A stretch of DNA of 64,000 nucleotides, from assembly GCF_001276715.1 (NCBI RefSeq), contig NZ_LIUQ01000039.1, positions 1 through 64,000 on the forward strand, in the 5' to 3' direction. The stretch is from Planktothricoides sp. SR001 (GTDB lineage: Bacteria; Cyanobacteriota; Cyanobacteriia; Cyanobacteriales; Laspinemataceae). Under the pieces are notes generated by a model. That model did not search any database, was not told the DNA's origin, and saw only the letters and a list, made by a program, of their open reading frames with translations. Positions 1-15,985 of the stretch are shown piece by piece. A program made the translations under genes and the position numbers. Position 1 is the stretch's first letter. Each line of letters starts with the position of its first letter.

Positions 1-39
1 TCAATGGCTAATTCTTAGCTAATTTAACTAAATAAATAA

Positions 40-75
40 AAAAACGCTCTCCTGAAAAGGGGGGCGTTTTTTTAT
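40..75 (+). terminator. Rho-independent terminator
   Basis: Arms ACGCTCTCC and GGGGGGCGT pair (with two G-U pairs) around a TGAAAA loop and run into seven T. It probably ends a gene lying to the left of the window. The stretch from 76 to 474 holds no gene that I can support; the only open frame there is short and of unlikely composition. Confidence 0.75.
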
Positions 76-474
76 TTTGGCAAGATTAGATAAAACTTAT
101 GTAAATAATTCGATTAGGCATATTTTCGGTGGATACAATTTGCCGGGGGATTTAGATTGAGATTCCGGCTGGTCAAAAATAATTTTATACTTTTATACTG
201 AAATGATTGGTTTGCATCTCTCTAATTTCATCTATATATAGATATAGGATAAAATCTAGAATAAATTTTTGGGTTTTTTCCCCATATCCTGCAATCCAAA
301 ATCTTTCGACAGTAGAAAGACTTTCTTTTTCAAATTGATTGCTTTCCACTTCACCCACTGGAGCGTTGACTTTCTGTCAATATCGCAATCATTAATTTGC
401 CATAAATTCGCCATTCAGGTTGGAAACCCTGGGGTCTGCTGGGGTCAGTCACCGATGACCAAATCCCTAAAATA

Positions 475-517
475 AATTCACCCCAAAGCCCAGCATTTAT
501 GGGCTTTGGGGTGAATT
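475..517. terminator. 18-bp perfect inverted repeat 3' of the DUF1830 gene
   Basis: Perfect arms of 18 bp (475-492 and 500-517; core CCCCAAAGCCCA / TGGGCTTTGGGG) around a 7-nt loop. It lies 22 bp past the stop of the minus-strand DUF1830 gene. It lacks a long T run, so it may act as a transcript-end hairpin or as a bidirectional terminator. Confidence 0.6.
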
Positions 518-539
518 GACGCCGAATGGTACAGGTCGG

Positions 540-842
540 CTATGAATAACTGGAAATTAAGGCTTTGGACTGACTTAATGAGGTGTCTTCTTTTAACTGG
601 AGGCGATCGCATGGAATGGTATCAGCCAGCACCGCACCCGCCATACAACTGGTATGAATTTCTAACACTGCCTGACTTGGGGCTTCAAACATCAGCCGTT
701 GGGCAGGAAATACCACTCGTTCAAAATACCAATTAGAGATATTGGTAATTCGGGCTACTTGAATTTGACTTGTGGGATTCACATAGCAGCATAAACGTTT
801 ATCAGCGCAGTTGGTGGGTATTGGGTCGATGATTTGAGCCAT
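540..842 (-). CDS. DUF1830 domain protein
   Basis: A 100-residue protein that I recognise as the small cyanobacterial DUF1830 family. Its near N-terminal part has the family's pattern: MAQIIDP, a CCYVN segment with two adjacent Cys at about 18-19, then ARITNISNWYFERVVFP, and a later EIHT and D-TIPCDRL stretch. No signal peptide or membrane segment is visible, so it is probably cytosolic. The function of the family is unknown. The gene stands alone, with a strong hairpin just after its stop. The C-terminal 15 residues (Ser/Lys-rich) look less constrained than the rest. Confidence 0.8.
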   Translation of the reverse strand: MAQIIDPIPTNCADKRLCCYVNPTSQIQVARITNISNWYFERVVFPAQRLMFEAPSQAVLEIHTSCMAGAVLADTIPCDRLQLKEDTSLSQSKALISSYS

Positions 843-1324
843 GTTTAAATAACCTCTTATTATATCAGGTGTCGCCTTACGGATTTCCTTGTCTGCCAGT
901 TAAATATTAACATTTCGTTACATTATCCGATAAAATCTTTAGATTTTGTTAATATTTCTCATTTTTTAGGTGAGAATTTTGTCAGCATTGTCAGCATTCA
1001 GAACGGCAGACCGGATCTATCACGGTTGTTCAGCCGATGTAGACCCTACAAGGGGATCATAACCGACTCAACTAGAATGCATCATTAAATTTCGGTCAAA
1101 AAAACAGCCCTGGGACTTATTCTGCACCGTAGGGATGTAGCAACAAAATCGATGAACTGCTACTACGGTGCGGCTTTTGGCGGCGATTACCTACCCTACG
1201 GGAAGGCGGAACGCCTACGGGATAGCTTCGCTTCACGCCAAATTCCCCGAAGTCTGGTAAAAAAGTTACATAATATGAAGAACGTCAACATATATCACTC
1301 TGGATCGAATCAGAGTCAAAGATC
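843..1324. other. Intergenic region between DUF1830 gene and msrA
   Basis: This stretch should hold the divergent promoters of the minus-strand DUF1830 gene and the plus-strand msrA. It is AT-rich near 900-970. The one open frame in it (1152-1358) runs through a palindromic repeat at 1193-1240 and into msrA in another frame, so I do not call it a gene. Confidence 0.6.
1193..1240. repeat. Cyanobacterial interspersed palindromic repeat
   Basis: The core CCCTACGGGAAGGCGGAACG followed by CCTACGGGATAGCTTCGCTT forms nested short inverted repeats (CCCTACGGG, GGCG/CGCC, GAAGC/GCTTC). Elements of this look are common between genes in filamentous cyanobacteria. Confidence 0.5.
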
Positions 1325-1984
1325 ATGGGACTACTTGGATTATTTGGAAAAAAACTGACTCTACCCAGTAAGGAAAACGCTTTACCGGGGCGATCGCAGG
1401 CAATGCCCGTTCCTGAAAAGCATTTTGTGAACGGCAATCCCATGAAACCCCCTTATGCGGATGGGATGGAAACCGCCATGTTTGGCATGGGTTGCTTTTG
1501 GGGGGCAGAACGCAAATTCTGGCAGCAAAAGGGAATTTTTATTACAGCGGTTGGATATGCGGCTGGACTCACCCCAAATCCCACTTACCAAGAGGTCTGT
1601 ACCGGGATGACGGGTCACAACGAGGTGGTCTATGTGGTGTTTGACCCCAAGGTGATTTCTTATGAAACCTTACTGAAAGTGTTTTGGGAAAATCACGACC
1701 CCACCCAAGGAATGCGTCAGGGTAATGACGTGGGCACCCAGTACCGTTCCGGCATTTATGTGTATTCCCCCGCACAACGGCAGCAAGCCGAACTCTCTCG
1801 TAACCTGTATCAACAAGCCCTCAGTCAAGCGGGTTATGGGGAAATTACCACAGAAATTCTGGATGCTCCAGAATTTTATTTTGCTGAAGAATATCATCAG
1901 CAATACCTGGCGAAAAATCCCAATGGCTATTGTGGATTAGGTGGCACCAAGGTGAGTTGTCCAGCAATGGTCACTTCTTTATAA
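1325..1984 (+). CDS. msrA: Peptide-methionine (S)-S-oxide reductase MsrA
   Basis: Reduces the S-epimer of methionine sulfoxide in proteins, an oxidative-damage repair enzyme of the cytosol, recycled by thioredoxin. The 219-residue product carries the MsrA signature [12 protein letters not shown] with catalytic Cys57, followed by the expected [16 protein letters not shown] and FWENHDPTQ segments. The C-terminal [13 protein letters not shown] holds two Cys that can act as resolving cysteines. The first 45 residues form an extension ([10 protein letters not shown]...) seen in cyanobacterial MsrA proteins. The gene is monocistronic. Function is well supported by motifs. Confidence 0.95.
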
Positions 1985-2506
1985 AGGTAAGGCTACTGAC
2001 CCCATCAAGTATTTCGCTGACCCGTCTAACCAGGATTTTGGAGTTGTCAAAACTCTCCGAAAGCCTGTGGCAAAGCTTGATTTATTACTTTTTCCTCTGC
2101 CTCTCAATGTCTTAAAATTTTTTACTTAAGATGCGAGTGCATTTCTCAACTGACTTTACAGATCAAAATCATTTTCCCAGCTAAAAGTATGTGTCCCTCA
2201 TTTCCGAAAATTGCTAGCTAGTCCAAGTTGTCTTCTTGGGAACCATAAGTATAGCAAGTCGCGCTGGTCTATTTACAAATCCCGTAACTGAAACTGAGTC
2301 CAGGTGAGATGTTCATAAAAACAAAGTGTAACTAGACCAGCGCGAAGCGCTATACTTATCCCTTATCCCATCGTCGATTTCCTTCTATATTTATATACTT
2401 CTGGTAAATATTTATGCAGAAGTGTTGAATGTAAATAAAAAAGTGGTTAAAATAGCCACAATGATGTTCTAATAAGCGCGAAAAATTTAAATATTTAACT
2501 TTAAGC
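1985..2506. other. Intergenic region with MITE-like element
   Basis: No gene seen. It separates msrA from the insertion-sequence cluster and holds the inverted-repeat element listed at 2245-2359. Confidence 0.6.
2245..2359. mobile_element. MITE-like element, 115 bp
   Basis: Terminal inverted repeats of about 27 bp: the left end reads ATAAGTATAGC..CGCGCTGGTCTA (2245-2271) and the right end (2332-2359) is its reverse complement except for a 4-nt block (AAGT against GCTT). The 60-bp interior has no coding capacity. I find no target-site duplication. It sits beside an IS graveyard, so it may be a non-autonomous transposon. Confidence 0.6.
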
Positions 2507-3074
2507 ATGACTAAATATTCATTCTCTATGATTCTCAAAGACATCTTGAGAGACCTACCCAAAAATGACTATCCAGTATTAAAAAGCCGTCTATTTTTCG
2601 GGTGCTGGCTATCATTAGTAATGGATAACAGCTTAACCAGTATGCGCGATTTATTTAAAAGAATAAATAATAGGGGTTTTGGCGTAGATATCTCTACATT
2701 TTCCAAGGCAAGTTCTCACCGCGACTAAAAACATTTTCAACAAATTTATCAAAAATTAAATCGTAACTATTCAGGTGTCTGAAACACAGCCAGATCAAGG
2801 GTTTCAGAATTAATGTGAGGTCTAGACTAACAGATCATTCTCAATAAATACCAAAAAATAAGGGCTTTGGATTTTCTTGTTGATAATGGGTAAACAGGTA
2901 GAAAAATTTATAACCCATAATAAACGAGGCTTACAGCCGAACTATTACGACCTGAATGCTTACGTAAGCTTGATAGCTTATCTAATTTTACAGATTGTAT
3001 CTATTCCCGAACAATGGGGAAATACACTATTAGATAAATTACGCTATTTACAATGTTGTATTTGTCAAAAAATT
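2507..3074 (+). pseudogene. IS4-type transposase remnant
   Basis: The 5' part (2507-2780) encodes an N-terminal segment with MDNSLTSMRDLFKRI and GFGVDISTFSKASSHRD, which I recognise from cyanobacterial IS4-type transposases. It breaks at an in-frame TAA right after SSHRD, with the frame continuing as KHFQQIYQKLNR. The catalytic middle is missing. The 3' part (from about 2886) resumes with a C-terminal segment (LNAYVSLIAYLILQIVSIPE, then LLDKLRYLQ) and runs into the left end of an IS1 element at 3075. It is dead: stop codons and an internal deletion. Confidence 0.75.
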
Positions 3075-3868
3075 GGCGTTGCACACTTGTGGTATGCTAA
3101 GGATTAACATTAAAAGAAAACATGGCGATAATTTGTCCTGCATCCCAATCTACAAACATTAAGAAAAACGGCCATAAAAGAGGAAAACAAAATCATTATT
3201 GTAAGGATTCTGGTCGTCAATTTATTGATAGCTATTCTCCTAAAGGCTATCCAGATGATGTCAAGAAACATTGCCTTCATCTTTATGTTGAGGGAAATGG
3301 TCTTCGTCGCAACGATTAACTGGCGTTTGTCATAACACAGTTATTAATTGGATAAAAGCCGCCGCATTAAGCTTGCCAGAACAACCAGATTATCAGGAAA
3401 TTCCCGAAGTGACTCAAATAGATGAATTACAGACTTATATAGGTAAAAAAAATCAAATCTGGCTGTCGAATGCGGTAAAGAAAGGGTTGGCAGTAATTTT
3501 AGCTTATGTAATAGGCGATCGTTCGGCGGCAACATTTGAACCATTATGGAAAATCCTTAAAGGATGGGAATCATTTTTTTATGTGACAGACGGTTATGTT
3601 GTTTATCCCCAATTTATTGACGAAGCCGCTCATATTATTAGTAAAACATATATGACTCGTGTGGAAGGGGAAAATACAAGACTAAGACATTACTTGGCTC
3701 GGTTACATAGAAAAACTCTGTGTTATTCTAAATCTCTCTTAATGTTGCAACTCTCAGTCAGATTAGTTATTTATTATTTAAGGCATAAAAATGTACCTAT
3801 TCCATTGACTTACTCTAGAGAGCCATTGCCAACGCGGTCTCTATAGCATACCATCAGTGTGCAACGCC
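3075..3868 (+). mobile_element. IS1-family element, copy 1 (degraded)
   Basis: It is bounded by inverted repeats starting GGCGTTGCACACTTGTGGTA at 3075 and the matching end (AGCATACCATCAGTGTGCAA then CGCC) at 3868. The transposase gene starts at 3122 with a zinc-finger-like N-terminus (CPASQSTNIKKNGHKRGKQN...C..SGRQF). A Cys of the finger is changed, and a deletion at about 3309 (copy 2 keeps four more bases at that place) shifts the frame. The DDE half (3373-3846) is open, with VIGDRSAATFEPLW, FFYVTDGYVVYP and GENTRLRHYLARLHRKT. The right junction continues with AGAAGAAT, which recurs beside copy 2. Confidence 0.85.
3122..3846 (+). pseudogene. IS1-family transposase (frameshifted)
   Basis: The N-terminal DNA-binding part (3122-3319) and the catalytic part (3373-3846) lie in different frames because of the deletion at about 3309. 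Compared with copy 2, the A-rich tract at about 3447 is in frame here, so the usual IS1 frameshift site would not be needed, but the upstream shift disables the gene. Confidence 0.8.
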
Positions 3869-4265
3869 AGAAGAATGTCTTAGGCAGGAGCCACGCACCT
3901 ACAACAGTAAACAACTGGCTAAAAAACTGGCGGCAGAACGGCAAGTTTACCTAAGTCCAGATCGCCTCAGACGGGTTCTAAAAAAAAGGGAATAATTTGG
4001 AAACGAACAAGAATCAGTCATAAAAGTAAGCAAGACCCAGAAGAAAAAAAGATAAAACAAGCCGATCTAGATATGCTGGAATTCGCCGCAGCAGCGGGAG
4101 AAATTGACTATCAAGTATTTAGACGAGTCGGGGTTTTGTTTATGGAGTTCAGTCGGTTATACCTATTTTCCGTCCAAGGAACAGAAACGTCAGGAACAAA
4201 CGCCAAGACGAGGGAGAAGACTGAGCATTTTAGGAATAATGCAACCAAAAGTGAGCTTTAATTAT
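3869..4265 (+). pseudogene. IS630-family transposase, middle part (inverted fragment B)
   Basis: Reading from 3869 gives [36 protein letters not shown], then after a shift in an A-run near 3985 [14 protein letters not shown] and LDMLEFAAAAGEID. After a second shift near 4110 it gives KYLDESGFCLW..VGYTYFP and RRGRRLSILGIMQP. This is the catalytic core of an IS630 transposase (DES motif). The first codons match, without gap, the point where the minus-strand N-terminal half at 5066-5357 stops (AYVEE, then EECLRQ). It is flanked on both sides by IS1 copies. Confidence 0.8.
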
Positions 4266-5065
4266 GGCGTTGCCCATTCGTGGTATGCTAAGGATGAACA
4301 TTAAAATAAAACATAGCGATGATTTGTCCTGTATGCCAATCTCAAAACATTAAGAAAAACGGCCATAAAAGAGAAAAACAAAATCATTATTGTAAAGATT
4401 GTGGTCGTCAATTTATTGATAGCTATTCTGTTAAAGGCTATCCAGATCATGTCAAGGAACATTGCCTTCATCTTTATGTTGAAGGTAATGGTCTTCGTCG
4501 CATAGAACGATTAACTGGTGTTTGTCATAACACAGTTATTAATTGGATAAAAGCAGCCGCATTAAGCTTGCCAGAGCAACCAGATTATCAGGAAATTCCC
4601 TCAGTCACTCAAATAGATGAATTACAGACTTATATAGGTAAAAAAAAATAAAATCTGGCTGTGGACTGCCGTCAACAAAGGGGTAGCCGGAATTTTAGCT
4701 TATGTAATAGGAGATCGTTCGGCGGCAACATTTAAACCATTATGGAAAATTCTTAAAGGATGGGAATCATTTTTTTATGTGACAGATGGTTATGTTGTTT
4801 ATCCCCAATTTATTGACGAGGCCGATCATATTATTAGTAAAACATACATGACTCGTGTGGAAGGGGAAAATACAAGACTAAGACATTACTTGGCTCGGTT
4901 ACATAGAAAAACTCTAAGAAGATTCTAAATCTCTCTTAATGTTGCAACTCTCAGTCAGATTAGTTATTTATTATTTAAGGCATAAAAATGTACCTATTCC
5001 ATTGACTTACTCTAGAGAGCCATTGCCAACCCGGTCTCTATAGCATACCACCAGTGTGCAACGCC
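4266..5065 (+). mobile_element. IS1-family element, copy 2 (degraded)
   Basis: Ends GGCGTTGCCCATTCGTGGTA (4266) and its inverted partner (to 5065). It is closely similar to copy 1 and in the same orientation. The insA-like frame 4319-4651 is intact (CPVCQSQNIKKNGHKREKQN, CKDCGRQF, then GLRRIERLTGVCHNTVINW) and stops in an A-run typical of IS1 frameshifting. The downstream catalytic frame is broken near 4917, where copy 1 has KTLCYSKS. The right junction on the minus strand is AGAAGAAT followed by the N-terminal half of the IS630 gene. Confidence 0.85.
4319..4651 (+). pseudogene. IS1-family transposase N-terminal frame (copy 2)
   Basis: A 110-residue zinc-finger/HTH part: CPVC at 3-6, CKDC, and a helix-turn-helix around RLTGVCHNTVINWIK. 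It ends at A8-TAA, where IS1 elements use programmed frameshifting to make the full transposase. The continuation carries a further frameshift near 4917, so a functional fusion is unlikely. Confidence 0.75.
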
Positions 5066-5357
5066 ATTCTTCTACATAAGCTATATCAGCCTCTTTCCAC
5101 TTCGGTTTGTTTCCGCGCCCCGGTTTGTCCCACAGTCCCCCTAGTCCCTTCTTCTCCCAACGATGCAGTGTGTCCCTGACTCTCTCAACAGACCAGTTAA
5201 AGTGACTCGCAATCTTTTCAACATACCATCCATCAGCATTCAACCGGACAACGGAGGCTCTATCTTTTACCCTTTGAGGTAGAGTGGTTGCCTTTCTAAG
5301 TTCAAACAAGGTTCGATCTTCTTCCGGGGTCAGAAATACTCTCAGACGAGCGCCCAT
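5066..5357 (-). pseudogene. IS630-family transposase, N-terminal half (fragment A)
   Basis: From the start ATG at 5357 (GGAGG Shine-Dalgarno nine bases upstream) it encodes MGARLRVFLTPEEDRTLFEL, RVKDRASVVRLNADGWYVEK, then a helix-turn-helix (IASHFNWSVERVRDTLHRWE) and KGLGGLWDKPGRGNKPKW. It ends at AYVEEW, where IS1 copy 2 begins. The rest of the gene lies 800 bp away on the other strand (3869-4265). Confidence 0.85.
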
Positions 5358-5661
5358 AATTTTTTCCTCCAACGAGCTGACTGGTCTTTACTTATCTTTA
5401 CATACTTTTGATTTTTTGTACCTACCTAATTAGTTATGTTCATTGGTTTGAGGAGATGACGTTTTTTTGAAAAATTTATGCTTCAAAGACATAAGTGTAA
5501 ATTACAATGTAAACTTTTGTATCGAAATTCAACATTTCTGATATTTATGGTTGAATTAATTTTATCTAATAACTTGACATTTGATAGGCTCTTTAAGAGC
5601 CTATCAAATGTCAACACGGCATACAACCATCAACCCATTCATTACAATCAAGGGGTAAAAG
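5358..5661. promoter_or_regulatory. Upstream region of the 2-MIB operon
   Basis: An AT-rich control region between the IS630 fragment and the first operon gene. It holds an 8-bp dyad AATTCAAC/GTTGAATT (5526-5533 and 5550-5557) and, closer to the gene, the long palindrome listed at 5574-5614. A Shine-Dalgarno-like AAGGGG precedes the start at 5662. No gene seen. Confidence 0.55.
5574..5614. promoter_or_regulatory. 41-bp palindrome upstream of 2-MIB operon
   Basis: Perfect arms of 20 bp around one central T: the left arm begins TTGACATTTGATAGG and the right arm ends CCTATCAAATGTCAA. The left arm contains a consensus -35 hexamer TTGACA. It ends 47 bp before the first gene. It could be an operator for a dimeric regulator, a leader hairpin, or an attenuator; the sequence alone does not decide. 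Confidence 0.7.
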
Positions 5662-7062
5662 ATGACAGAAAATGTGAATTCTAATGGGCAGACGCTAGCG
5701 GAACAGTCGAGCCTGAGTACTCGGGCAGCGAAGCAGTTGGCCACAACCACCAAGACCGCTCCGCAGATGCAGGGCATCACCTCACGCTGGATCAGCAGCC
5801 TGCTGCCTTGGGTGCATCTGCGCGGCGGCTCTTATCGCGTCAACCGCCGCTTGACCTATGCGCTGGGTGATGGTCGCGTCACCTTTACGAACGTCGGGTC
5901 AACGATTCAGGTAATTCCCCAGGAGCTGCGCGAGCTGGCCTTTCTGCGCGACTTTGAAGACGAAACCGTCTTGAACGCGTTGGCCGACCGCTTTGTGCAG
6001 CAGGAGTTTCAACCCGGTGACATCCTGGTAGAGAAGGGAACCCCCGCCGACCAGATTGTGCTGATTGCTCACGGCAAAGTGAGCAAGATCGGTACGGGCA
6101 AGTATGGCGATGAGGTGGAATTGGGTGTGTTGATCGATGGCGACCACTTTACCTATCAGGCCATTCTTGAATCCGAAGATGTATGGGACTTCACCATCAA
6201 GGCGCTCACGCGCTGTACGGTCTTGGCGCTGACACAAAACTCTTTTGAAGAACTGGTCAACTCCTCAGAATCGCTTCAGGCGCACATCGAGGCGTTTCAA
6301 GCCCAACCCCCCAAGGACCAGGATCGGTACGGTCAGGCCGCCATCGATCTGGCCGCTGGCCACAGCGGCGAACCCGTGCTGCCCACGACCTTTGTCGATT
6401 ACGAGACCTCTCCGCGTGAATACGAGTTGAGCCTGGTGCAGACGGTGCTGCGTGTTCACACCCGCGTTGCCGATCTCTACAACGATCCGATGAACCAGAT
6501 TGCAGAACAACTCAAGCTAACGGTGCACGAGTTGCGCGAGCGCCAGGAGTACGAGTTGGTCAACAACCAAGAGTTCGGCCTGTTGCACAACGCCGACCTC
6601 AGCCAGCGCTTCTCCACCCGCAATGGCCCGCCCACGCCAGATGATTTTGATGAGCTGATCACCCGCCGCCGCAATGCCCAGTACATTTTTGCCCACCCGC
6701 GTGCCATTGCCGCCTTTGGCCGCGAGTGCAGCAAGCTGGGTCTCTACCCCGACAGCCATGATATGGGGGGCGAACGAGTCATGGCGTGGCGCAACATCCC
6801 GATTTTGCCCTGCAACAAGATTCCCATCAGCAACACCCAGACCACTTCCGTGATCGTTGTCCGTACCGGTGAGGACAATCAAGGTCTGATCGGTCTTCGA
6901 CCCGCAGAGTTGCCCGATCAGCACGAGCCGGGGTTGAACGTGCGCTTTATGGGCATCAACGAGAAAGGCATCATCTCCTATCTCGTCAGCAACTACTTCT
7001 CCGCTGCCATCCTCGTACCCGATGCCGTCGGCGTGCTCGAAGATGTCGAGCTAGGACGCTAG
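5662..7062 (+). CDS. cnbA: Family 2B encapsulin-like shell protein with CNB domain (CnbA)
   Basis: A 466-residue protein of the EshA type. It is annotated in cyanobacterial 2-MIB operons as a cyclic-nucleotide-binding protein, and the wider family is recognised as family 2B encapsulins (HK97-fold shell proteins carrying an inserted cyclic-nucleotide-binding domain). Visible parts: an N-terminal arm with [17 protein letters not shown] and [30 protein letters not shown] (about 54-73); a CNB-like beta-roll at about 94-213 ([20 protein letters not shown]); then the conserved shell part [51 protein letters not shown] and [16 protein letters not shown]. The canonical Glu and Arg of the cAMP-binding cassette are not visible ([20 protein letters not shown]). 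There is no DNA-binding domain, so a regulator role is unlikely. Probably encloses the 2-MIB synthase; that is inference from family and context. Confidence 0.85.
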
Positions 7063-7156
7063 TAAATCCCGGCAGAGGTACCTGAACAGTCAACTGTCAG
7101 CATCTTCACCATACACTCATTGAAACACCTATTGAGAAGTAACGCATTCTATAGCC

Positions 7157-8020
7157 ATGCCCCAAAATATCACTGCCGACAATGTTTTGCGTAACGAATA
7201 TCAAAAGTCGGTTGCCAACTATTGGAACCAAGAAAAAAATCCCGTTAATCTGCTGCTAGGCGACGTTGACGGCTATTACCACCACCACTACGGGATCGGC
7301 GATGTCGATTGGTCGGTGTTGGAGGCCCCCGAAGGTGAGCGCGACGATCGGATTATTCGCGAGTTGCACCGGCTCGAACACGCCCAGGCTGCGTTCCTGC
7401 TCGATCATCTGGGCGACGTCAAGCCTGATGACCGCGTGATGGACGGCGGTTCCGGTCGCGGCGGCACCAGCTTCATGGTCAATGAACGCTTTGGTTGTCA
7501 GGTCGATGGAGTGTCAATCTCAGAATCTCAGGTCGAGTTTGCCAACGACCAGGCGGCGCAGCGCGGCGTGACCGAAAAGGTCAAGTTCCACTTTCGCAAT
7601 ATGCTGGATACAGGCTTCGAGACGGGAGCCATGCGTAGCATTTGGACGAATGAGACCACCATGTATGTAGATTTGTTCAAGCTGTTCGCCGAGTTTGCAC
7701 GCCTGTTGCAGGATGGTGGTCGCTACGCCTGCATCACGGGTTGCTACAACGACGTTACGGGGGGGCGCTCGCGGGCGGTCAGCCAAATCGATGCCCATTA
7801 CATCTGTAACATCCATCCGCGCAGTCAATATTTCAAGGCACTGGCAGCGAACAACCTCGTCCCGATTACCGTCACCGACCTGACTCCCCTAACGATTCCC
7901 TACTGGGAACTGCGGGCCAAGTCTTCGCTCGTCACCGGGGTCGAGGATTACTTCCTTACGGCATACAAAGAGGGCAGCTTCCACTACCTGCTCATCGTCG
8001 CCGATCGGATCATTCGCTAA
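7157..8020 (+). CDS. mtf: Geranyl diphosphate 2-C-methyltransferase
   Basis: Methylates geranyl diphosphate at C2 with S-adenosylmethionine, giving 2-methyl-GPP, the first committed step to 2-methylisoborneol. The 287 residues show the GPP methyltransferase segment YYHHHYGIGDVDW (about 41-52), SAM motif I VMDGGSGRGG (94-103), GVSISESQVEFAN (118-130) and the family's conserved IWTNETTMYVD (about 162-172). The gene lies 94 bp after the first shell gene and 95 bp before the cyclase, in the same direction and with the same GC-rich codon use, so it is part of one operon. No membrane segment is present. The motif set and the neighbours leave little doubt. Confidence 0.95.
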   Translation: MPQNITADNVLRNEYQKSVANYWNQEKNPVNLLLGDVDGYYHHHYGIGDVDWSVLEAPEGERDDRIIRELHRLEHAQAAFLLDHLGDVKPDDRVMDGGSGRGGTSFMVNERFGCQVDGVSISESQVEFANDQAAQRGVTEKVKFHFRNMLDTGFETGAMRSIWTNETTMYVDLFKLFAEFARLLQDGGRYACITGCYNDVTGGRSRAVSQIDAHYICNIHPRSQYFKALAANNLVPITVTDLTPLTIPYWELRAKSSLVTGVEDYFLTAYKEGSFHYLLIVADRIIR

Positions 8021-8049
8021 GGCTTATCCAAAACACAAATCGCATCATA

Positions 8050-8087
8050 GTGTGGTGCGTAGCGCGCATACCGCACACGCACCACAC
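8050..8087 (+). promoter_or_regulatory. Intercistronic hairpin between methyltransferase and synthase
   Basis: Perfect 11-bp arms GTGTGGTGCGT (8050-8060) and ACGCACCACAC (8077-8087) around a 16-nt GC-rich loop, 29 bp before the synthase start. It may tune mRNA stability or translation of the synthase relative to the methyltransferase. There is no T run, so a full terminator is unlikely. Confidence 0.6.
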
Positions 8088-8115
8088 ACCACCACTCTGA
8101 TACAGGGATAAGACG

Positions 8116-9285
8116 ATGAAAGATACCAACCTGGATAATACGAGTACCCCATTTTTATTCGGTCCGACTGGCCTCGGTACATCCGCCGCTCGCTTTGTGA
8201 GCGAGCTAGCCAAGGCTGCTCGTGCCGGTAACCTGGAACCACGGCTGCCCCAGGCAGACCTCGCCCCGGCGGGGGACCTCGATCCGGCCTATGCAGAGAG
8301 AGCCTGGGGCGATGGGACTGCCTCGCCGCTCTACTGCCCCATTACCGAGCGATTCAACGAGCCGCTGGCGGACGAGGTAGACGATCGGCTGGCGGCCTGG
8401 GCACTAGAGTGCGGGTTCGATGAGGACGAGGTGGAGAAGATTCGTAAGGTACGGTTCGGACGGCTGGTTATGCTGGCCCACCCGGACTGCGACGACCCAG
8501 ATCGGCTGTTGATCGGTGCCAAGCTGAACATGGCCTGGTGGGCTGCCGACGACTACTACGCCGACGACAGCGATCTCGGTGCGGATCCAATGTTGCTGCC
8601 CCCACGTCTCGTCTTGGCGATGACCGCCTTGGACCCGCCACCCCCGGCGGGAGAATTTACCCCACCGGTGGAGGAAGCGATCGCCGAAGATCGGGTGCTG
8701 GTGGCCTTCAGTAAGGCCATCGACTACTTGGGCCAGTACGCCACGCCGGAGCAAGTCCAGCGCACCTGTTACGCCACCTTCTCTATGTTTGTCTCTTGGG
8801 GTGCCTATGCGGCATGGCGCTACACCGACGAGTACCCGCCAGCTTGGAAGTATCTAGCCGCGCGCCAGCACGACAGCTTCTACACCTCCATGACGCTAAT
8901 CGACCCCATCGGAGGGTACGTCCTCCCAGGGGATCTTTTCTTCGAGCCGCGCGTCCGTCACGCAGCGTTCTTGGCCGGGATAGCCTCGCTCCTGGTCAAC
9001 GATCTCCTTTCCGTCAATAAGGATCTGGCAGACGAGCAGCCACCGGTCAACATGGTGCTACAGATTGCGGCGGATCGGGGTTGCTCTATTAAAGAGGCGA
9101 CAGAGATCACCGTCAAACTCCACAACGACCTGGTTCATGATTTTCAGGAGCGCCACCGGAAACTCCAGACCGTGCCCAACATGGAACTTCAACGCTTCCT
9201 GCGCGGGTTGCGCGGATGGATGGGCGGCGGGTTTGAATGGCACAACAGTAGCCCGCGGTATAAGACTAAAACGAGTGAAAAATAA
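8116..9285 (+). CDS. mic: 2-methylisoborneol synthase
   Basis: Class I terpene cyclase that turns 2-methyl-GPP into 2-methylisoborneol. Metal-binding motifs are intact: DDYYADDSD from Asp145 and the NSE triad N295-D-L-L-S299-V-N-K-D303. The C-terminal RY pair (SPRYKTK) is also present. Length is 389 residues; the first ~65 are Pro/Ala/Gly-rich and low in predicted structure, with TPFLFGPTGLGTSAARF near the start. In Streptomyces homologues the disordered N-terminus is reported to target the enzyme into the encapsulin shell, so this segment is the likely cargo-loading region here (inference). Shine-Dalgarno AGGGA precedes the start. It lies 9 bp before the second shell gene. Product: the musty odorant of water blooms. 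Confidence 0.95.
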   Translation: MKDTNLDNTSTPFLFGPTGLGTSAARFVSELAKAARAGNLEPRLPQADLAPAGDLDPAYAERAWGDGTASPLYCPITERFNEPLADEVDDRLAAWALECGFDEDEVEKIRKVRFGRLVMLAHPDCDDPDRLLIGAKLNMAWWAADDYYADDSDLGADPMLLPPRLVLAMTALDPPPPAGEFTPPVEEAIAEDRVLVAFSKAIDYLGQYATPEQVQRTCYATFSMFVSWGAYAAWRYTDEYPPAWKYLAARQHDSFYTSMTLIDPIGGYVLPGDLFFEPRVRHAAFLAGIASLLVNDLLSVNKDLADEQPPVNMVLQIAADRGCSIKEATEITVKLHNDLVHDFQERHRKLQTVPNMELQRFLRGLRGWMGGGFEWHNSSPRYKTKTSEK

Positions 9286-9294
9286 AGGTGAATC

Positions 9295-10698
9295 ATGGTA
9301 GAAGAAGTGAATCTTAACGGGCAGGCTATACCGATGCAGTCGAGCTTGAGTACAGATGCGGCGCGCAAGTTAGCCACAACCGCCAAGACTACTCCGCAGA
9401 TGCAGGGCATCAGCTCGCGCTGGATCAGCCGCCGGTTGCCCTGGGTGGAACTGCGCGGCGGCTCCTACCGGGTCAACCAGCGTTTGACCTATGCGCTGGG
9501 CGATGGCCGAGTGACCTTTACCAATGTGGGGTCCACCATACGAGTGATCCCGCAAGAGTTGCGCGAAATGGCTCTGTTGCGCGAGTTTGACGAGGAAATG
9601 GTGTTGAACGCGCTGGCAGATCGCTTTGTGCAGCAGGAGTTTCAACCTGGTGATGTGCTGGTGGAAAAGGGAACCCCCGCCGACCAGATTGTGCTGATTG
9701 CCCGTGGCAAGGTCAGCAAAATCGGTACGGGCAAGTATGGCGATGAGGTGGAGCTTGCGGTGTTGACCGATGGCGATCACTTCACCTACCAGGCTATCAT
9801 CGAATCCGGCGATCTCTGGGACTTCACCATGAAGGCGATTACGCGCTGCACGGTGTTGATGCTGACGCAGGGGGCGTTTGAAGAGGTGGTGGCTTCCTCT
9901 GAATCGCTGCGGGCCCACATCGAAGAATTCAAGGCCCGCCCGCCAAAAGCCCAAGATACACACGGTCAGGCCGCCATTGCGTTGGCTGCCGGTCATACAG
10001 GCGAACCCGTGCTGCCCACGACCTTTGTCGATTACGAGACCTCTCCGCGCGAATACGAGTTGAGCCTGGTGCAGACGGTGCTGCGTATCCATACCCGCGT
10101 TGCCGATCTCTACAACGAGCCTATGGACCAGATCGAACAACAGCTTAAATTGACTGTGCATGAGTTGCGCGAGCGCCAGGAGTACGAATTGGTTAATAAT
10201 CAAGAGTTCGGCCTGCTGCACAACGCCGACCTCAGCCAACGCTTTCCCACCCGCAACGGCCCGCCTCACCCGGATGACATGGACGAGCTGATCGCTAGGC
10301 GGCGCAATTCACAGTACATTTTTGCCCACCCGCGTGCCATCGCCGCCTTTGCGCGTCAGTGCAACAGAATGGGTCTCTACCTGGAAAGTATCGATGTGGG
10401 TGGAAACCGCATTCCGGCCTGGCGTGGCATCCCCATCTATCCCTGTGGCAAAATCCCCATCAACAAAACGACCCGGACCACGTCGATCATCGTCATGCGT
10501 ATCGGTGAGGACAATCAGGGCGTGGTGGGTCTTCGGCCTGCGGAGTTACCCGAGCAATATGAGCCAGGGTTGAACGTGCGCTTTATGGGCATCAACGAAA
10601 AGGCCATCATCTCCTATCTGGTCAGCAACTACTTCTCCGCCGCTATCCTTGTCCCCGACGCCGTCGGCATTCTCGAGGATGTCGAGATCGGGCGGTAA
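9295..10698 (+). CDS. cnbB: Family 2B encapsulin-like shell protein with CNB domain (CnbB)
   Basis: A 467-residue close paralogue of the product of the first gene; the two align almost without gaps from SSLST to the C-terminus and differ mostly by conservative changes. It has the same layout: N-arm, [23 protein letters not shown]-like domain at about 94-213, then the shell part with [41 protein letters not shown] and [13 protein letters not shown]. As in the first copy, the cAMP cassette lacks the canonical Glu and Arg. It starts 9 bp after the synthase stop, so the two are probably translationally coupled. Two unlike shell subunits suggest a mixed shell or two capsid forms. It is the last gene of the operon and is followed by a strong hairpin at 10897-10935. 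Confidence 0.85.
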
Positions 10699-10896
10699 GA
10701 GGTCGGTAGGACAGAACGGGTGCGTTCCACTAAGTAGTTTGGTCTAATAAAGTGGTGATGAGAGAAACTTGTTGTGTCCGAAATCCTGGAATAGCAATAT
10801 AGTCATTCGTGACAGGTTAAGAAAGTGAAGCGAATGTCAATGAGTGAATATGCTCAAATTAATAGGGAATAATTTTGAGAATATCACCTGGTCGGG

Positions 10897-10935
10897 GAGA
10901 GGGAAAAGGCAATCGCTGATTGCCTTTTCCCTCTC
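10897..10935 (+). terminator. Hairpin ending the 2-MIB operon
   Basis: Perfect 18-bp arms (GAGAGGGAAAAGGCAATC and its complement) with a 3-nt loop, about 200 bp after the last operon gene. There is no U-tract directly after it, so it could be a 3'-end stabilising hairpin. A second small hairpin with a T-rich tail follows at 11027. Confidence 0.6.
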
Positions 10936-11026
10936 TGTATGATTATCATTATAGCAACCGCCAAGGCGGTTAGGACGTAAACTAAAGCAATATACAAGAA
11001 TATAGAGAAGCAAAGAAATAGCTGTC

Positions 11027-11050
11027 CACGGGCTTTTGCCCGTGTTTATT
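11027..11050 (+). terminator. Small T-tailed hairpin
   Basis: CACGGGC-TTTT-GCCCGTG followed by TTTATT. It looks like an intrinsic terminator between the 2-MIB operon and the beta-helix gene, although it lies close to the latter's start. The rest of 10699-11094 holds no gene. Confidence 0.55.
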
Positions 11051-11094
11051 CTCTGTTTAACTTGAAAATCTGTTTAACTTGGCAAAATTTCCCC

Positions 11095-12870
11095 ATGATT
11101 CCTAATTTAAAGCAAAAACTGAAAACCCTGAAACGCCAAGAACGCAAATTTTTACAAGTTGTTTCTCTGGTGGGTTTTAGTTTGTCTTTGATTTGGTTAA
11201 TTTATACGCTTTTTTCCTATGTAAATGGTACGCCATCACCGCCATTGCCTAGCCCGGAAATGGTGGGAAAAAATTATCCTGTTTCTGCGTTAGAAACATC
11301 GGTGATTCAGTCGGTAATTCAGTCAGAAAATAATTCGGAAAATATGGTTCAAAATCAGGGATGTGGCAGTCCCAAGGGCGGGTCAAAGGATAATCCGATC
11401 GCTACTCAATATGGCCAAAATACTTATCCTTGGACTAACCAAATTAAATGGAATTGTGTCTATAATATTCAAGATTTTTATGGGGCAAATATGAGCGATC
11501 GCTTATCGGCGGCGATCGCGGCGGCGGCTGGAGGAGGGGTGATTTATTTTCCTGCGGGAACTTATGAATTTAACGATCATATTTATCTCACTGATAGCGT
11601 AGTGTTACGGGGAGAAACCCCAAAGGTGACTGATGCTAAATCTGATAATTATGACCCACCGAGTAAATTAGTCTTTCCTCAATATCAACCCAGATTATCT
11701 GGCAATGGCACCCCTAACGATACGGCTTTTAAAAAAATCTTAACCCGTCAGAGCGATCAAGATAGTAATTTAGGCTTAGTCAATCTAGATATTAATCGGG
11801 CAGCGATTTCTATTGTCGGGAATTCTGAGACAGGAACTAATAAAAACTTGCTGGTTTTTGGCATTAAAAGCAACAATGTAGCAGCCCCAGACCCCCAGGT
11901 GCCGGATGTATCGTTTCAAGCCCCTTGGATGCGGTTTAGCGATCGCTTTGCCACGAATATTAAACTGCAAGCCAAAGAAAATATTTTAGTTGCCAATAAT
12001 CGGATTAATGATAAGCCAACGGATACTTACGACCAGCCCGGATATCAAATCCAATCGCGAGATCAAAAATCAACGATCGCATTAGAAGATGGCCGCCAAG
12101 TTCCCTTTAGCTATACTGACCACTATGGTATTGTAGTGAATCGGTCAAAACCTGGGGGATTTCAATTAGCGGCCACCCCGGATAGTGAACCGGGACTATT
12201 TAGAAAAGGTATTGTCATTCGGGATAATTGGGTTTATCACACCATGCGAGTGGGGATTCAAGCATCTGGAGATGGTTTAGTAATTCAAGATAATCAAATT
12301 AAAGATAATCCCCGAAAACAAGCTTGGGTACATCCCACCGGACTGCGAGAACCCAGAGGCGCCGATACTTTTGAAAATCGGGCTATTGACTGGTCTGGTT
12401 GGAATGTCAAAATTCAGGGCAATCAATATGAAGTGTATCAGCATAGAATCCAGGATTCTAAATATTTTAGTACCGACGGGGAAGGGATTCTGATTCAAGA
12501 ATGTTGTGGGGGCACCACCGTCAATGGTGCAGAGATTAAAAATAATCGGGGCAAGGGTTATATTGGCTTGTACAAAACTCAAGAGATTAAAAATGTGACC
12601 ATTCAAGGAAATGAAGTGTTGCATAGTCCCACGAATAATACCCCGCTGATTTATCTTATGGCGGATACGAACAATCGCCCCTATTCTATGGGAGATGTCA
12701 CCGTAGAAAATAATACCGTTCAGGGCAGTATTTTCCTCAAAGCTAGTGCCGGAGGATCCAGGAACGTGGTGCAAAATAATCAAGGAAGTAATCAGGGGGC
12801 GATCGAGGTTTCTTGCCATGTGCAAGTAACCGGAAACCAAGGCTTTGCAGCCAAACCTTGTTGGCGGTGA
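11095..12870 (+). CDS. Membrane-anchored right-handed beta-helix protein
   Basis: I choose ATG 11095 rather than the TTG at 11062, which gives 591 residues. An N-terminal basic stretch is followed by one membrane segment (VVSLVGFSLSLIWLIYTLF, about 25-43), so the protein is anchored or exported. The mature part begins with a pectate-lyase-superfamily opening (AAAAGGGVIYFPAGTYEFND) and continues with Asn-rich beta-helix rungs such as GIVIRDNWVYH, GLVIQDNQIKDN, VKIQGNQYEV and VTIQGNEVLH. Such proteins bind or cleave polysaccharide at the cell surface; no catalytic residues can be assigned by eye. It uses the host's AT-rich codons, unlike the upstream operon. Exact substrate unknown. Confidence 0.75.
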   Translation: MIPNLKQKLKTLKRQERKFLQVVSLVGFSLSLIWLIYTLFSYVNGTPSPPLPSPEMVGKNYPVSALETSVIQSVIQSENNSENMVQNQGCGSPKGGSKDNPIATQYGQNTYPWTNQIKWNCVYNIQDFYGANMSDRLSAAIAAAAGGGVIYFPAGTYEFNDHIYLTDSVVLRGETPKVTDAKSDNYDPPSKLVFPQYQPRLSGNGTPNDTAFKKILTRQSDQDSNLGLVNLDINRAAISIVGNSETGTNKNLLVFGIKSNNVAAPDPQVPDVSFQAPWMRFSDRFATNIKLQAKENILVANNRINDKPTDTYDQPGYQIQSRDQKSTIALEDGRQVPFSYTDHYGIVVNRSKPGGFQLAATPDSEPGLFRKGIVIRDNWVYHTMRVGIQASGDGLVIQDNQIKDNPRKQAWVHPTGLREPRGADTFENRAIDWSGWNVKIQGNQYEVYQHRIQDSKYFSTDGEGILIQECCGGTTVNGAEIKNNRGKGYIGLYKTQEIKNVTIQGNEVLHSPTNNTPLIYLMADTNNRPYSMGDVTVENNTVQGSIFLKASAGGSRNVVQNNQGSNQGAIEVSCHVQVTGNQGFAAKPCWR

Positions 12871-13061
12871 ATTGGTTATTGGTTATTTGTTGTTGGTTAT
12901 TTGTGGTTGGCGATCGCTCGTCATCAAAACCCATAACGAATAATCAATAACTAATAACAAAAATATTTATATGGTGTAAGATTTCTAGTAAGCTGTTAAC
13001 TGGTCATGTAGATGACCGCGAAAAGGGACAAGACTTACACGGAAAAACAGGAGTTTGAGTC
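12871..13061. promoter_or_regulatory. Intergenic repeats and structured leader of the HTH gene
   Basis: 12871-12960 holds short TTGGTTATT-type repeats of the kind scattered over the window. 12974-13040 is a nested dyad: outer arms GTGTAAG/CTTACAC (12974-12980, 13034-13040) and inner arms GGTCAT/ATGACC (13002-13017). It lies just before the HTH gene and may be an operator or a structured leader. Confidence 0.45.
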
Positions 13062-13313
13062 ATGCCGATCACTTGTAGACTACGGGAAATGATGGCGGAG
13101 AAGAAATTAAAGCAGTTTGAGGTGGCGATCGCCACTAAACTCAGTCCGACCATTATTGGCAACCTTTATCACAACCAGTTTCGCCGAATTGACTGCAAAA
13201 CCGCAGAAAAACTCTGTCATTATTTTGATTGTGAGTTAGGTGACTTGTTTCAACTGCTCGATCAGCCCTCAACTTCGTCCGTGGATTCGACCCCATCCAA
13301 ATCCAGGACTTAA
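13062..13313 (+). CDS. Cro/CI-type (XRE) helix-turn-helix protein
   Basis: An 83-residue protein made almost only of an HTH_3/XRE domain: CRLREMMAEKKLKQFEVAIA, then the recognition region KLSPTIIGNLYHNQFRRIDC, then KTAEKLCHYFDCELGDLFQL. The 'cells-count' pattern (EKLC.YFDCELGDLF) is typical of the small YozG-like Cro/CI regulators. The C-terminal tail is Ser/Pro-rich. A GGAG Shine-Dalgarno precedes the ATG. It stands alone upstream of the heme oxygenase gene; the 280-bp gap does not suggest co-transcription. Target genes cannot be inferred. The nested dyad just upstream is a candidate autoregulatory site. Confidence 0.8.
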   Translation: MPITCRLREMMAEKKLKQFEVAIATKLSPTIIGNLYHNQFRRIDCKTAEKLCHYFDCELGDLFQLLDQPSTSSVDSTPSKSRT

Positions 13314-13595
13314 GTGAGGGCAGTGGAGCGATGGCTACTGAGTGTAATCACTTATAATCACTTATCAGGGAATATCAAGGAATATTTTGATTATTTTGAG
13401 TATTTTTACCTGCTCTCAAAGAGTTGTCAGGTGAAATTACTCATGGAGGTGGCGATCGCATCCCCCAGGTATCACCGCTCAAGCGTAACAATTCTTAATG
13501 AAATTTCTCAGCAAATCATTTTAATCTTATGAGTTAGTGGTTTTCATAAATCTAGCCGCCAGCCGTTTATTTTTTAAGTGTTGAAAAATCTGGAT

Positions 13596-14324
13596 ATGAG
13601 CAGTAATCTAGCGACTAAATTGCGTGAGGGAACCAAGAAGTCTCACACGATGGCCGAAAACGTTGGTTTTATCAAGTGCTTTTTAAAGGGCGTTGTAGAA
13701 AAAAATTCTTACCGCAAGTTAGTCGCCAACCTCTACTTTGTCTATTCGGCAATGGAAGAGGAGATGGAGAAACAGAAAGCACATCCAATTGTTTCTCAGA
13801 TTTACTTCCCTGAACTGAACCGAAAAGGCAGTTTAGAGCAAGATTTGAGCTACTACTTTGGTAGTAACTGGCGCGATGAAGTGGTACTGTCTCCTGCCGG
13901 TGAAACTTATGTGCAAAGAATTAGAGAAATCTCTGCAACCGCACCAGAACTCTTGGTCGCCCATTCCTATACTCGGTATTTGGGTGATCTCTCTGGGGGT
14001 CAAATTCTCAAGAAAATTGCTCAAAATGCCATGAACCTGTCGGAAGGACAAGGGACCGCTTTCTATGAGTTTGCGGATATTGCGGATGAAAAGGAATTTA
14101 AGAATAAGTATCGTCAGGCGATGAACGACCTCCCGGTTGATGAAGCCAGCGCCAATCGGATTGTAGATGAAGCTAACGATGCTTTTGGCATGAACATGAA
14201 GATGTTTAATGAACTCGAAGGTAATCTGATTAAGGCGATCGGTGTGATGCTGTTTAATAGTGTGACTCGACGACGCACTCGTGGCAGCACAGACTTGGCT
14301 ACCGCTGAAGTGGCCAACACCTAG
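13596..14324 (+). CDS. ho1: Heme oxygenase (biliverdin-producing)
   Basis: Opens heme to biliverdin IXa, CO and iron using reduced ferredoxin; in cyanobacteria this supplies phycobilins and phytochrome chromophore. I start at ATG 13596 (MSSNLATKLREG) rather than the GTG at 13578. That gives 242 residues, the usual length. The proximal heme ligand is His17 in REGTKKSHTMAEN, and the distal-helix signature SYTRYLGDLSGGQ is intact. Other conserved parts are NLYFVYSAMEEEME and MFNELEGNLIKA. The gene is cytosolic and appears monocistronic. Confidence 0.95.
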   Translation: MSSNLATKLREGTKKSHTMAENVGFIKCFLKGVVEKNSYRKLVANLYFVYSAMEEEMEKQKAHPIVSQIYFPELNRKGSLEQDLSYYFGSNWRDEVVLSPAGETYVQRIREISATAPELLVAHSYTRYLGDLSGGQILKKIAQNAMNLSEGQGTAFYEFADIADEKEFKNKYRQAMNDLPVDEASANRIVDEANDAFGMNMKMFNELEGNLIKAIGVMLFNSVTRRRTRGSTDLATAEVANT

Positions 14325-14403
14325 GCTGTTTTCACGGATTAGGTTTCGCTCTCCGCTATGATAGAGGCGTGGAATTTCCTTCTGTGGGGGAAATTTCGCG
14401 CCT

Positions 14404-15576
14404 TTATCCGTTACCGGGTGATTTGTTACTGGGTGATTTTTTCCGGTGATTCCGGCCCGATAAGATATATTCCCCTTGGTTGACGGCATGATTGGTGGTG
14501 GTATTGAAGACTAAGCCGGGAGTTTGGGCATAAATAGCGATCGCCTCTGGTGGCAGACCTTCTTTATTAAAACTAAGTAGGGAATAAAGCAACTGTCCCG
14601 CTTTAACTACAGTTCCCAACTCCACCAAATTTTGCACCAATCCACCAGATCCAGCATAATATTCCTGGATTTCACTTTTGCGATGAAATTGGGTTTGATG
14701 GGCAGTGGTTTCCGGGAGGGGAAAACCCGGAATGTCTAACATCCTTTTGACCGCTAAGTAATTTTTAATTCCTCGGACGCCATTAGCTACGGACTCTGGC
14801 TGGATTTGCTGACCCCCTCCTAATTCTAATGTCCAGGATTCGACATCAAACTGGATTGGCTGACCTAATTCGGCTAAACATTTTTCCAAGGCTAACCACG
14901 GTTTGAGAAAGGCTTCATCAAAGGCATCCCAATCATAGTCATTCATTAAGACGGCATGAGGGAATAAAAACCCTTTAGCACTGTCTTCTCGACTGGAAAA
15001 ACAATAGAGGTAATCTAAGGCTCGATCGGTGGCACTGTGGCAGTCAATGATGTAATTGGCATCGAGACATAAGGATTGTAATTGATATCGATAAAGAATC
15101 CGAAAAGGCACACTCAAGGGAGACTGAATTTGTTGATGTCGTTGGGGAAAACTCTGTTGAATTTTTTGTAAATATTGTCGCCGAATGGTTTCTGGGTGCT
15201 GATTCAGTTGCGATTGGGCAAAGGCGAAAATATTTTCTTTTTCTTTTTTATAGTCCCAAAAAATTCGATTCCAGTCTCGGCCATCATAAGGATTATATCG
15301 CCCGGTAGAAAAGTGATGATATCGCTGATTAATGCTCAGAGGATTACAGAGGGGGACTAAATAAATTTCTCCCATGAGTTGCTTTTGATCTATGCTGATT
15401 AAGAATTGAATTAACTCGTGAATTACGGCGTTACAGGAAATTTATGCCCCATGTAAATTGGCTTGAATATAGGCTTTTTTCCCCGGCTGACTGCCGGTGA
15501 AGCGATACACTTGTAGCCCTAAGCGATCGCCAGATGCCATTTGCAGTAGCGGCATTGTCAAAATCGTGAATTCCAT
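14404..15576 (-). pseudogene. Succinylglutamate desuccinylase/aspartoacylase-like, nonsense-mutated
   Basis: Reading from ATG 15576 gives MEFTILTMPLLQMASGDRLG, then FTGSQPGKKAYIQANLHGA, then TAA at 15444-15442. The same frame continues as ISCNAVIHELIQFLISID..QLMGEIYLVPLCNP and stays open to 14404 (390 codons in all). The stop replaces the expected Glu of the zinc-binding HGAE motif (GAA to TAA, one base). The later His ligand (IIDCHSATD) and the C-terminal beta-barrel part (GLVQNLVELGTVVKAGQLLY) are preserved. The family removes acyl groups from amino acids or similar amides. A 323-residue product could still start at ATG 15375, but without the first zinc site. Either recent inactivation or a sequencing error. 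Confidence 0.8.
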
Positions 15577-15985
15577 AATTTTTTTCTCGATGAATTAAAA
15601 TCAAATTACCATTTTTTATTGCCCTGATTGCCCATATGAAGGATAAGAAAATTCCGGGTAATTGAGGAATTGCCGATTAATTGCCCCCAGAATCGGCACA
15701 GGCGATCGCACAAATCTTGGTGAATCAAGGTTGGGGAAAATAATAGCCACTTTTGGCTTTGGTGAAAAGATTAAACATATTAATACGATCCTTAATGGTA
15801 GTCGGCCAAAATTTCTGGTCTAGAAACCGGGTTTCTGTATCTGGGAAGAAAACCTGTTTTATCACTCAGACTAGAAACCCGGTTTTTGGCATTATGCTTA
15901 TAAAATAGAAAGTAATCCCCCCTTGCTGCCCCCCTTGATCCCTCCTTATCAAGGGGGGCAGCATTCAGATTGTCAGGAGATAGTG
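15577..15985. other. Intergenic region with palindromic repeats
   Basis: It contains an AGAAACCGGGTTTCT / AGAAACCCGGTTTTT pair (about 15821-15887), the repeat family seen across the window. A CCCCCCTTGAT..ATCAAGGGGGG hairpin at about 15929-15959 lies before the next gene. No gene seen. Confidence 0.6.

Follow-up and report, generated by a model that had tools for sequence, protein, structure and literature searches.

The DNA analysed here, referred to as the window, comprises positions 1 to 64,000 of contig NZ_LIUQ01000039.1 of the cyanobacterium Planktothricoides sp. SR001 (assembly GCF_001276715.1, forward strand, 64,000 nucleotides), and contains an operon for 2-methylisoborneol (2-MIB), an odorant of musty water, consisting of the genes encA, mtf, mic and encB. 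The outer genes encA and encB, designated cnbA and cnbB in the literature, code for two family 2B encapsulin shell proteins, and mtf and mic, which lie between them, code for a geranyl diphosphate (GPP) methyltransferase and the 2-MIB synthase (Table 1). Both shell proteins carry the RRR patch which marks the Enc2 type in the two-shell system of Streptomyces lydicus. As judged from gene and protein sequences, it is very likely that the operon builds a small icosahedral cage around the 2-MIB synthase, with EncA and EncB as shells and loading through the N-terminus of the enzyme. Published work is cited below by PMC number.

Table 1. Positions of the operon genes, their domains and motifs, and the inserted segment in the window
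Feature	Position	Strand	Description	Basis
encA (cnbA)	5662-7062	+	family 2B encapsulin shell protein, 466 aa	NF041163, PF19307 + PF00027, 9bix
mtf	7157-8020	+	geranyl diphosphate 2-C-methyltransferase, 287 aa	NF041943
mic	8116-9285	+	2-MIB synthase, 389 aa, predicted cargo	NF041167
encB (cnbB)	9295-10698	+	family 2B encapsulin shell protein, 467 aa	NF041163, 9bix
encA inserted CNB-fold domain	6001-6264	+	residues 114-201	PF00027, 58 bits
encB inserted CNB-fold domain	9634-9897	+	residues 114-201	PF00027, 55 bits
encA diagnostic motif 1, RRRN, Enc2 type	6664-6675	+	residues 335-338	alignment columns
encB diagnostic motif 1, RRRN, Enc2 type	10297-10308	+	residues 335-338	alignment columns
encA diagnostic motif 2	6754-6783	+	residues 365-374	lumenal loop by homology to S. 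lydicus shells
encB diagnostic motif 2	10387-10416	+	residues 365-374	4/10 positions unlike encA
Candidate cargo-loading motif GPTGLGTSAAR	8161-8193	+	synthase residues 16-26	published consensus (PMC8346489)
Inserted segment, insertion-sequence debris + operon	1987-11065	.	absent between matching flanks of congeneric genome	

Shell proteins, enzymes and cargo motif

The window contains two family 2B shell genes, less than 10 kb apart. Both products were matched over their full length by the NCBIfam model encap_f2b (NF041163, cut-off 400), with 741 bits for EncA and 732 bits for EncB, and by the SrpI-like Pfam family PF19307 with 431 and 436 bits. Each contains one inserted cNMP_binding domain (PF00027), and the domains are arranged with the encap_f2b match beginning at residue 17, PF00027 at residues 114-201 and PF19307 from residue 215. 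No DNA-binding domain was reported for EncA or EncB by Pfam at an E-value of 0.001 or by NCBIfam, including any C-terminal helix-turn-helix, and an identity as transcription regulators was dropped on this domain content. The first-pass annotation had described the flanking genes as full-length family 2B encapsulin-like proteins with an inserted cyclic nucleotide-binding (CNB) domain and not as transcription factors, and both statements are borne out.

The closest solved structures for both shells are those of the family 2B encapsulins 9bix, 9bhu and 9bje (E 1e-190 to 1e-174), with 9bix as the best match (E 1.2e-190 for EncA and 6.6e-189 for EncB). The check for the HK97 fold by structure prediction, which had also been proposed, gave a mixed answer. 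The AlphaFold2 models were built from a thin alignment of 38 sequences, and their mean predicted local distance difference test scores were low, with 57.9 for EncA and 63.7 for EncB. Foldseek still placed encapsulins at the top seven positions for each of these low-confidence models, 9bhu being first, followed by 9bix and 9bje, and both family 2B and family 2A members were among the matches. Since the models are of low confidence, the assignment of an HK97 fold to both shells is supported mainly by homology to solved HK97-fold shells.

In the CNB-fold domain of EncA, FTYQAIL is present at the position of FGERALL in cGMP-dependent kinase, a stretch which we take to be ligand-binding in cyclic-nucleotide kinases. 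The authors of the S. lydicus study stated, citing earlier work, that such CNB domains do not bind cyclic nucleotides (PMC12407261). Because the typical residues are replaced, and in view of this statement, regulation by cyclic AMP through the CNB-fold domains is unlikely.

The methyltransferase scored 519 bits against NF041943 (cut-off 400), and the synthase scored 494 bits against NF041167, the NCBIfam model for the family 2 encapsulin nanocompartment cargo protein terpene cyclase (cut-off 400). The metal motifs DDYYADD and NDLLSVNKD were found in the synthase and are those tabulated for Planktothricoides (PMC8705757). The gene order is that of the published cnbA-mtf-mic-cnbB operons of CHAB3331, Planktothricoides SR001, Pseudanabaena dqh15 and NIES-512, in which, in the available excerpts, cnbA and cnbB were labelled as cyclic nucleotide-binding proteins or regulators, or a capsid-like domain only was given. 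For Planktothricoides raciborskii CHAB3331, lengths of 1401 bp for encA and 1404 bp for encB, a gap of 94 bp between encA and mtf and one of 9 bp between mic and encB were published in 2011 (PMC3072421), and all four spans are identical in the window. The mic-encB spacing in the window compares to one of 85 bp given for Pseudanabaena; since it is only 9 bp, encB is probably made together with the synthase.

In a survey of encapsulin operons, the consensus given for 2-MIB synthases associated with encapsulins is GPTGLGT and the one for geosmin synthases GPTGLGTSAAR, and a role in loading was proposed (PMC8346489). The cargo motif was identified by a scored search with a threshold of at least 35; a stricter pattern overlooks GPSGLGT forms. 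It was found in 76 of the 88 synthase rows, which include the window and its same-species copy, and in 36 of the 39 rows whose fetched flank includes a shell gene. One locus, L039, was counted as negative because the stretch searched was too short, and its motif is present. Between the synthase of the window and that of a locus from the Pseudanabaena family (L153), the motif stretch at residues 15-32 is 94% identical (17/18), compared to 74% for the linker at residues 33-70 and 88% for the core. The N-terminus had been described as a disordered, Pro/Ala/Gly-rich segment suited to cargo loading; the motif agrees with the cargo role, and the conservation of residues 16-26 shows that the segment is not mere filler. 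A GxTGxGT motif was not found in the methyltransferase, which is therefore probably not a cargo.

In other cyanobacterial two-shell loci, a motif-bearing open reading frame (ORF) of 751-797 aa adjoins the shells in 11 of 12 cases, and the three of these ORFs that were scored all fit a second model for terpene cyclases of the encapsulin-cargo kind. The remaining locus, L135, has two intact shells and, unlike the 11 others, no motif-bearing ORF in the fetched flank; the cyclase gene there may have been disrupted or lost.

The Streptomyces griseus shell EshA/SgEnc (9bhu), which is the second match to the window shells by sequence and the first by fold, resembles them in shell family, in the inserted CNB-fold domain and in the RRR patch. 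It reportedly encloses a 2-MIB synthase through an N-terminal disordered domain. The S. griseus system belongs to another phylum and is said to have a single shell gene, in contrast to the two which surround the enzymes in the window.

Shell types and history of the pair

The nearest two-shell comparison is the S. lydicus operon with Sl-Enc1 (9bje) and Sl-Enc2 (9bix), a putative xylulose-kinase system, whose shells align with those of the window over nearly their full length. In 2025, it was reported that all Enc1 shells are set apart from all Enc2 shells by two short motifs, motif 1 being TVWK in Enc1 and RRRK in Enc2 of S. lydicus, that Enc1 is unable to assemble alone while Enc2 is able to do so, and that the two shells, with 79% overall similarity, mix at every interface (PMC12407261). 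The S. lydicus pair thus combines V-W-K with RRR, whereas the window pair combines RRR with RRR: both shells read RRRN, and by motif 1 the pair falls outside the Enc1-plus-Enc2 class. RRRN was identified in both shells of the window, of its same-species copy (L146), of Pseudanabaena cinerea (L038/L154) and of L153, that is, in four loci of three species, and none of the four positions of motif 1 differs between EncA and EncB. At motif 2, four of ten positions are disjoint between the EncA and EncB groups, neither of which is clearly of Enc1 or Enc2 type.

For comparison, pairs were counted among the aligned shells from locus L038 on, with two shells of at least 380 aa each, which gave 43 loci; L080, whose second shell is fragmentary, and L174 and L175, whose partners are on separate contigs, stand outside this count. 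Of these loci, 39 are not cyanobacterial 2-MIB loci, and all 39 pair V-W-K with RRR. Four further loci read separately (L171, L172, L173 and L190) keep the Enc1/Enc2 difference, one of them as V-W-R, which brings the total to 43 of 43 other pairs. The two shells of genome G675, which are about 2 kb apart, agree with this. The cyanobacterial operons with a two-domain, geosmin-type terpene cyclase have two family 2B shells like the window; unlike in the window, their shell genes are adjacent, and V-W-K with RRR is present in 12 of 12 loci.

EncA and EncB are 82% identical, compared to a median of 61.6% (range 58.8-86.3) for the 39 other pairs, and are closer to each other than 38 of these. The view of two unlike shell paralogues, as expressed in the first-pass annotation, therefore points in the wrong direction, also in view of the missing Enc1/Enc2 patch difference. 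Since an Actinomycetota pair (L157) with 86% identity retains the V-W-K/RRR difference, its absence at 82% is not a simple by-product of similarity. Fixed differences between EncA and EncB are enriched in residues 331-400 (13/70 versus 25/396, Fisher p 0.0017; the 13 become 14 if an insertion column is counted), with p 0.06 in a free sliding-window permutation, and this enrichment is suggestive only.

Single-shell loci mostly have RRR or MRR, the exceptions being L049, L061 (VSK), L078 (VWK), and L144 and L145 (VWK, divergent). The last two, located in two other cyanobacteria (L144 4930-6459 and L145 3984-5432), are divergent single family 2B-like shells with about 40% identity to EncA, and no matches to 2-MIB genes were found in their fetched flanks. 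V-W-K was also identified in the family 2A shell SrpI, which self-assembles, and in the family 2A shell of the SR001 genome. V-W-K by itself is thus no bar to assembly and is probably the older state of motif 1.

The history of the pair was derived from a tree of 33 rows from which the motif 1 columns were excluded. Here, the cyanobacterial 2-MIB shells, six in all, group together (support 100/100), with EncA (100/98) and EncB (99/97) as separate clades within this group. Constraints uniting EncA with every Enc1 row, or joining all RRR shells into a single clade, were rejected in approximately unbiased tests (p-AU 9e-34 and 1e-77), which are not specific for EncA, since the Enc1 and Enc2 rows are not clades in the free tree; the groups were named after the tree had been viewed. 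In two other cyanobacterial subclades and in L157, the closest relative of an Enc1 shell is likewise the Enc2 shell of its own lineage, although V-W-K and RRR have been kept. Our reading is that shell pairs have repeatedly been homogenised or re-duplicated while motif 1 was held by selection, the data fitting duplication or conversion, and that among the pairs read, the motif 1 difference was lost only in the 2-MIB lineage.

Between EncA and EncB, the nonsynonymous divergence (dN) is 0.115 and the synonymous divergence (dS) 0.80 (dN/dS about 0.14), which indicates that both are under purifying selection. Between the window and L153, dS is 0.49 for EncA and 0.44 for EncB. Because the EncA/EncB value exceeds both, the two sister lineages had separated before the operon reached both cyanobacterial groups.

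The cyanobacterial version of the system had been called far less described in the first-pass annotation, which is too strong. The cnbA-mtf-mic-cnbB arrangement was in print in 2011 (PMC3072421), a 2021 survey counted 64 family 2B operons with a terpene cyclase in cyanobacteria (PMC8346489), it was pointed out in 2023 that cnbA and cnbB contain a domain like that of phage capsids (PMC10580876), and a 2025 survey of two-component encapsulin operons includes cyanobacterial ones (PMC12407261). In the literature on encapsulins, on 2-MIB and geosmin and on the cyanobacterial operon, as far as covered in part, no claim was found that both shells are of Enc2 type. The operon and the shell family are thus already known, and the pairing of Enc2-type shells only appears to be new.

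Genomic setting and acquisition of the operon

The operon genes have a G+C content of 56-60% and a G+C content at third codon positions (GC3) of 0.69-0.72, compared to 42-48% and 0.38-0.48 for three flanking genes; the host genome has a size of 7.07 Mb. In a congener without the synthase, the matches to window positions 1256-1986 and 11066-12868 are only 145 bp apart, so that the 9.1 kb segment of insertion-sequence debris and operon is, by this comparison, an insertion in this species. In the same-species genome, window positions 1-16000 are fully matched at 100%.

At an E-value of 1e-60, the synthase was identified in 2 of 388 sampled genomes of the order, both from this species, and in 3 of 388 sampled genomes of the class, namely SR001 and two others. 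In the Pseudanabaena family, 3 of 38 genomes gave a match at an E-value of 0.001, one of them weak, and the two strong matches share their coordinates with the two class matches. The synthases of the window and of the Pseudanabaena-family copies are 87-88% identical, compared to 67-70% for a CoaD-like housekeeping protein (named by eye), which, for the one housekeeping gene compared, supports a transfer of the operon between cyanobacterial lineages. One scan of viral contigs with EncB gave no match, and a search of plasmids gave 15 records at 60-80% identity, none of which is from a cyanobacterium or spans 80% of the query.

Positions 3073-5435, immediately before the operon, consist of nested insertion-sequence debris (named by eye). 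Within it, 4267-5065 is nested in another element, with a break overlap of about 8 bases, and uninterrupted copies of this other element are present elsewhere in the same-species genome. A short sequence at 12871-12910 occurs in many copies in the same-species and congeneric genomes, and also in the empty site of the congener. A near-perfect palindrome of 41 bases (5574-5614), with TTGACA in each arm, is located 47 bases before the encA start codon; no palindrome was found upstream of the L153 operon, though a TATCAAATGTCAA stretch is common to both upstream regions. Downstream of encB, a palindrome of 39 bases (10897-10935) is a possible terminator; the 700 bases that follow the L153 and L154 operons gave no palindrome. 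Scans for promoters and terminators returned counts at about chance level.

A complete family 2A system is also present in SR001, on contig 159 (L147 2351-8651), with a serine acetyltransferase, an SrpI-like shell and a cargo cysteine desulfurase, next to two ORFs which, as named by eye, are cysteine-synthase-like and CRP-like. In total, the genome contains three shell genes and two encapsulin systems.

The predicted compartment and its alternatives

By homology to the S. lydicus shell, EncA and EncB would be HK97-fold family 2B subunits forming 60-subunit cages of about 28 nm. The N-terminal segment would draw the synthase into the lumen, most likely via GPTGLGTSAAR, while the methyltransferase, which lacks the motif, would probably stay outside, so that 2-methyl-GPP would have to enter by the shell pores. 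These would lie under the external CNB-fold domains, which are devoid of the residues typical of cyclic-nucleotide binding. Because both shells have the RRR patch of the solo-assembling S. lydicus Enc2, each is probably able to assemble alone, and EncA and EncB most likely mix. 2-MIB would thus probably be made inside a tiny protein cage. The odorant-producing compartment suggested by the first-pass annotation is well backed by the shell and cargo family membership and by the conserved motif; particle formation and the enclosed synthase remain predictions.

Several observations weigh against this proposal. The structure models of EncA and EncB are weak, and RRR is not required for assembly in general, given that the self-assembling SrpI has V-W-K, so that the RRR shared by both shells only weakly indicates solo assembly of each. 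Of the 49 synthase rows whose fetched flank contains no shell gene, 40 carry the cargo motif as well. However, family 2B shells above the cut-off were identified in 10 of 10 re-searched genomes, including 8 of 8 without a shell at the fetched locus. A motif without a neighbouring shell therefore does not settle the question of loading, and since the motif is similarly present with and without a shell neighbour, synthases may be loaded in trans. The idea that shell-less synthases lose the motif was not supported by these counts. All four genes are expressed in Pseudanabaena foetida NIES-512, with cnbA and cnbB transcripts separate from that of mtf-mtc, and Pseudanabaena mtf and mtc produce 2-MIB in E. 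coli without the shell genes, which implies that the shell is not needed for catalysis (PMC10580876).

The separate cnbA and cnbB transcripts of P. foetida would also suit two separate homotypic cages of EncA and EncB, for example, with another cargo or timing, as would the RRR type of both shells, which assembles alone in S. lydicus, and the stable, distinct EncA and EncB lineages in Planktothricoides and Pseudanabaena. We regard this as unlikely, since shells mix everywhere in S. lydicus at 79% similarity (PMC12407261) and EncA and EncB are 82% identical, and since a cargo motif is present in the synthase and none in the methyltransferase. Even less probable is a passenger role of the shell genes, in which a cage forms with no present function in cyanobacterial 2-MIB production. 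Such a role would agree with the sufficiency of mtf-mtc in E. coli and with a four-gene block present in distant cyanobacteria and missing from most sampled relatives; however, the dN/dS of about 0.14, the two intact shells in all four cyanobacterial 2-MIB loci from three species, and a cargo motif retained while the linker drifts argue against it. That EncA and EncB are Crp/Fnr-type regulators of the 2-MIB genes, as they were originally annotated and as was put forward in 2011 (PMC3072421), deserves hardly any credence despite the CNB-fold domain in both, since a DNA-binding domain was not found, the encapsulin match spans the full length, Crp/FtrB models match weakly, partially and far under the cut-off, and the residues typical for binding cyclic nucleotides are substituted.

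The presence of two Enc2-type shells might tentatively be ascribed to a loss of Enc1 by duplication or gene conversion, followed by renewed divergence in the A-domain and the lumenal loop, in a cage which needs no Enc1 N-arm and which, rather than the membrane, helps to retain 2-MIB in the cell; as a whole, this account is doubtful. NIES-512 holds most of its 2-MIB intracellularly (0.14 versus 0.007 µg/mL/OD730), whereas E. coli releases nearly all of it (PMC10580876), a contrast which fits retention by a cage and is confounded by the differing hosts and membranes.

The EncA/EncB pair breaks the stated two-motif rule for Enc1 and Enc2 and thereby provides a natural test of the roles of these motifs. 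If 2-MIB is made in a cage, its synthesis and retention could be tested directly with mutants in loading and in the pores.

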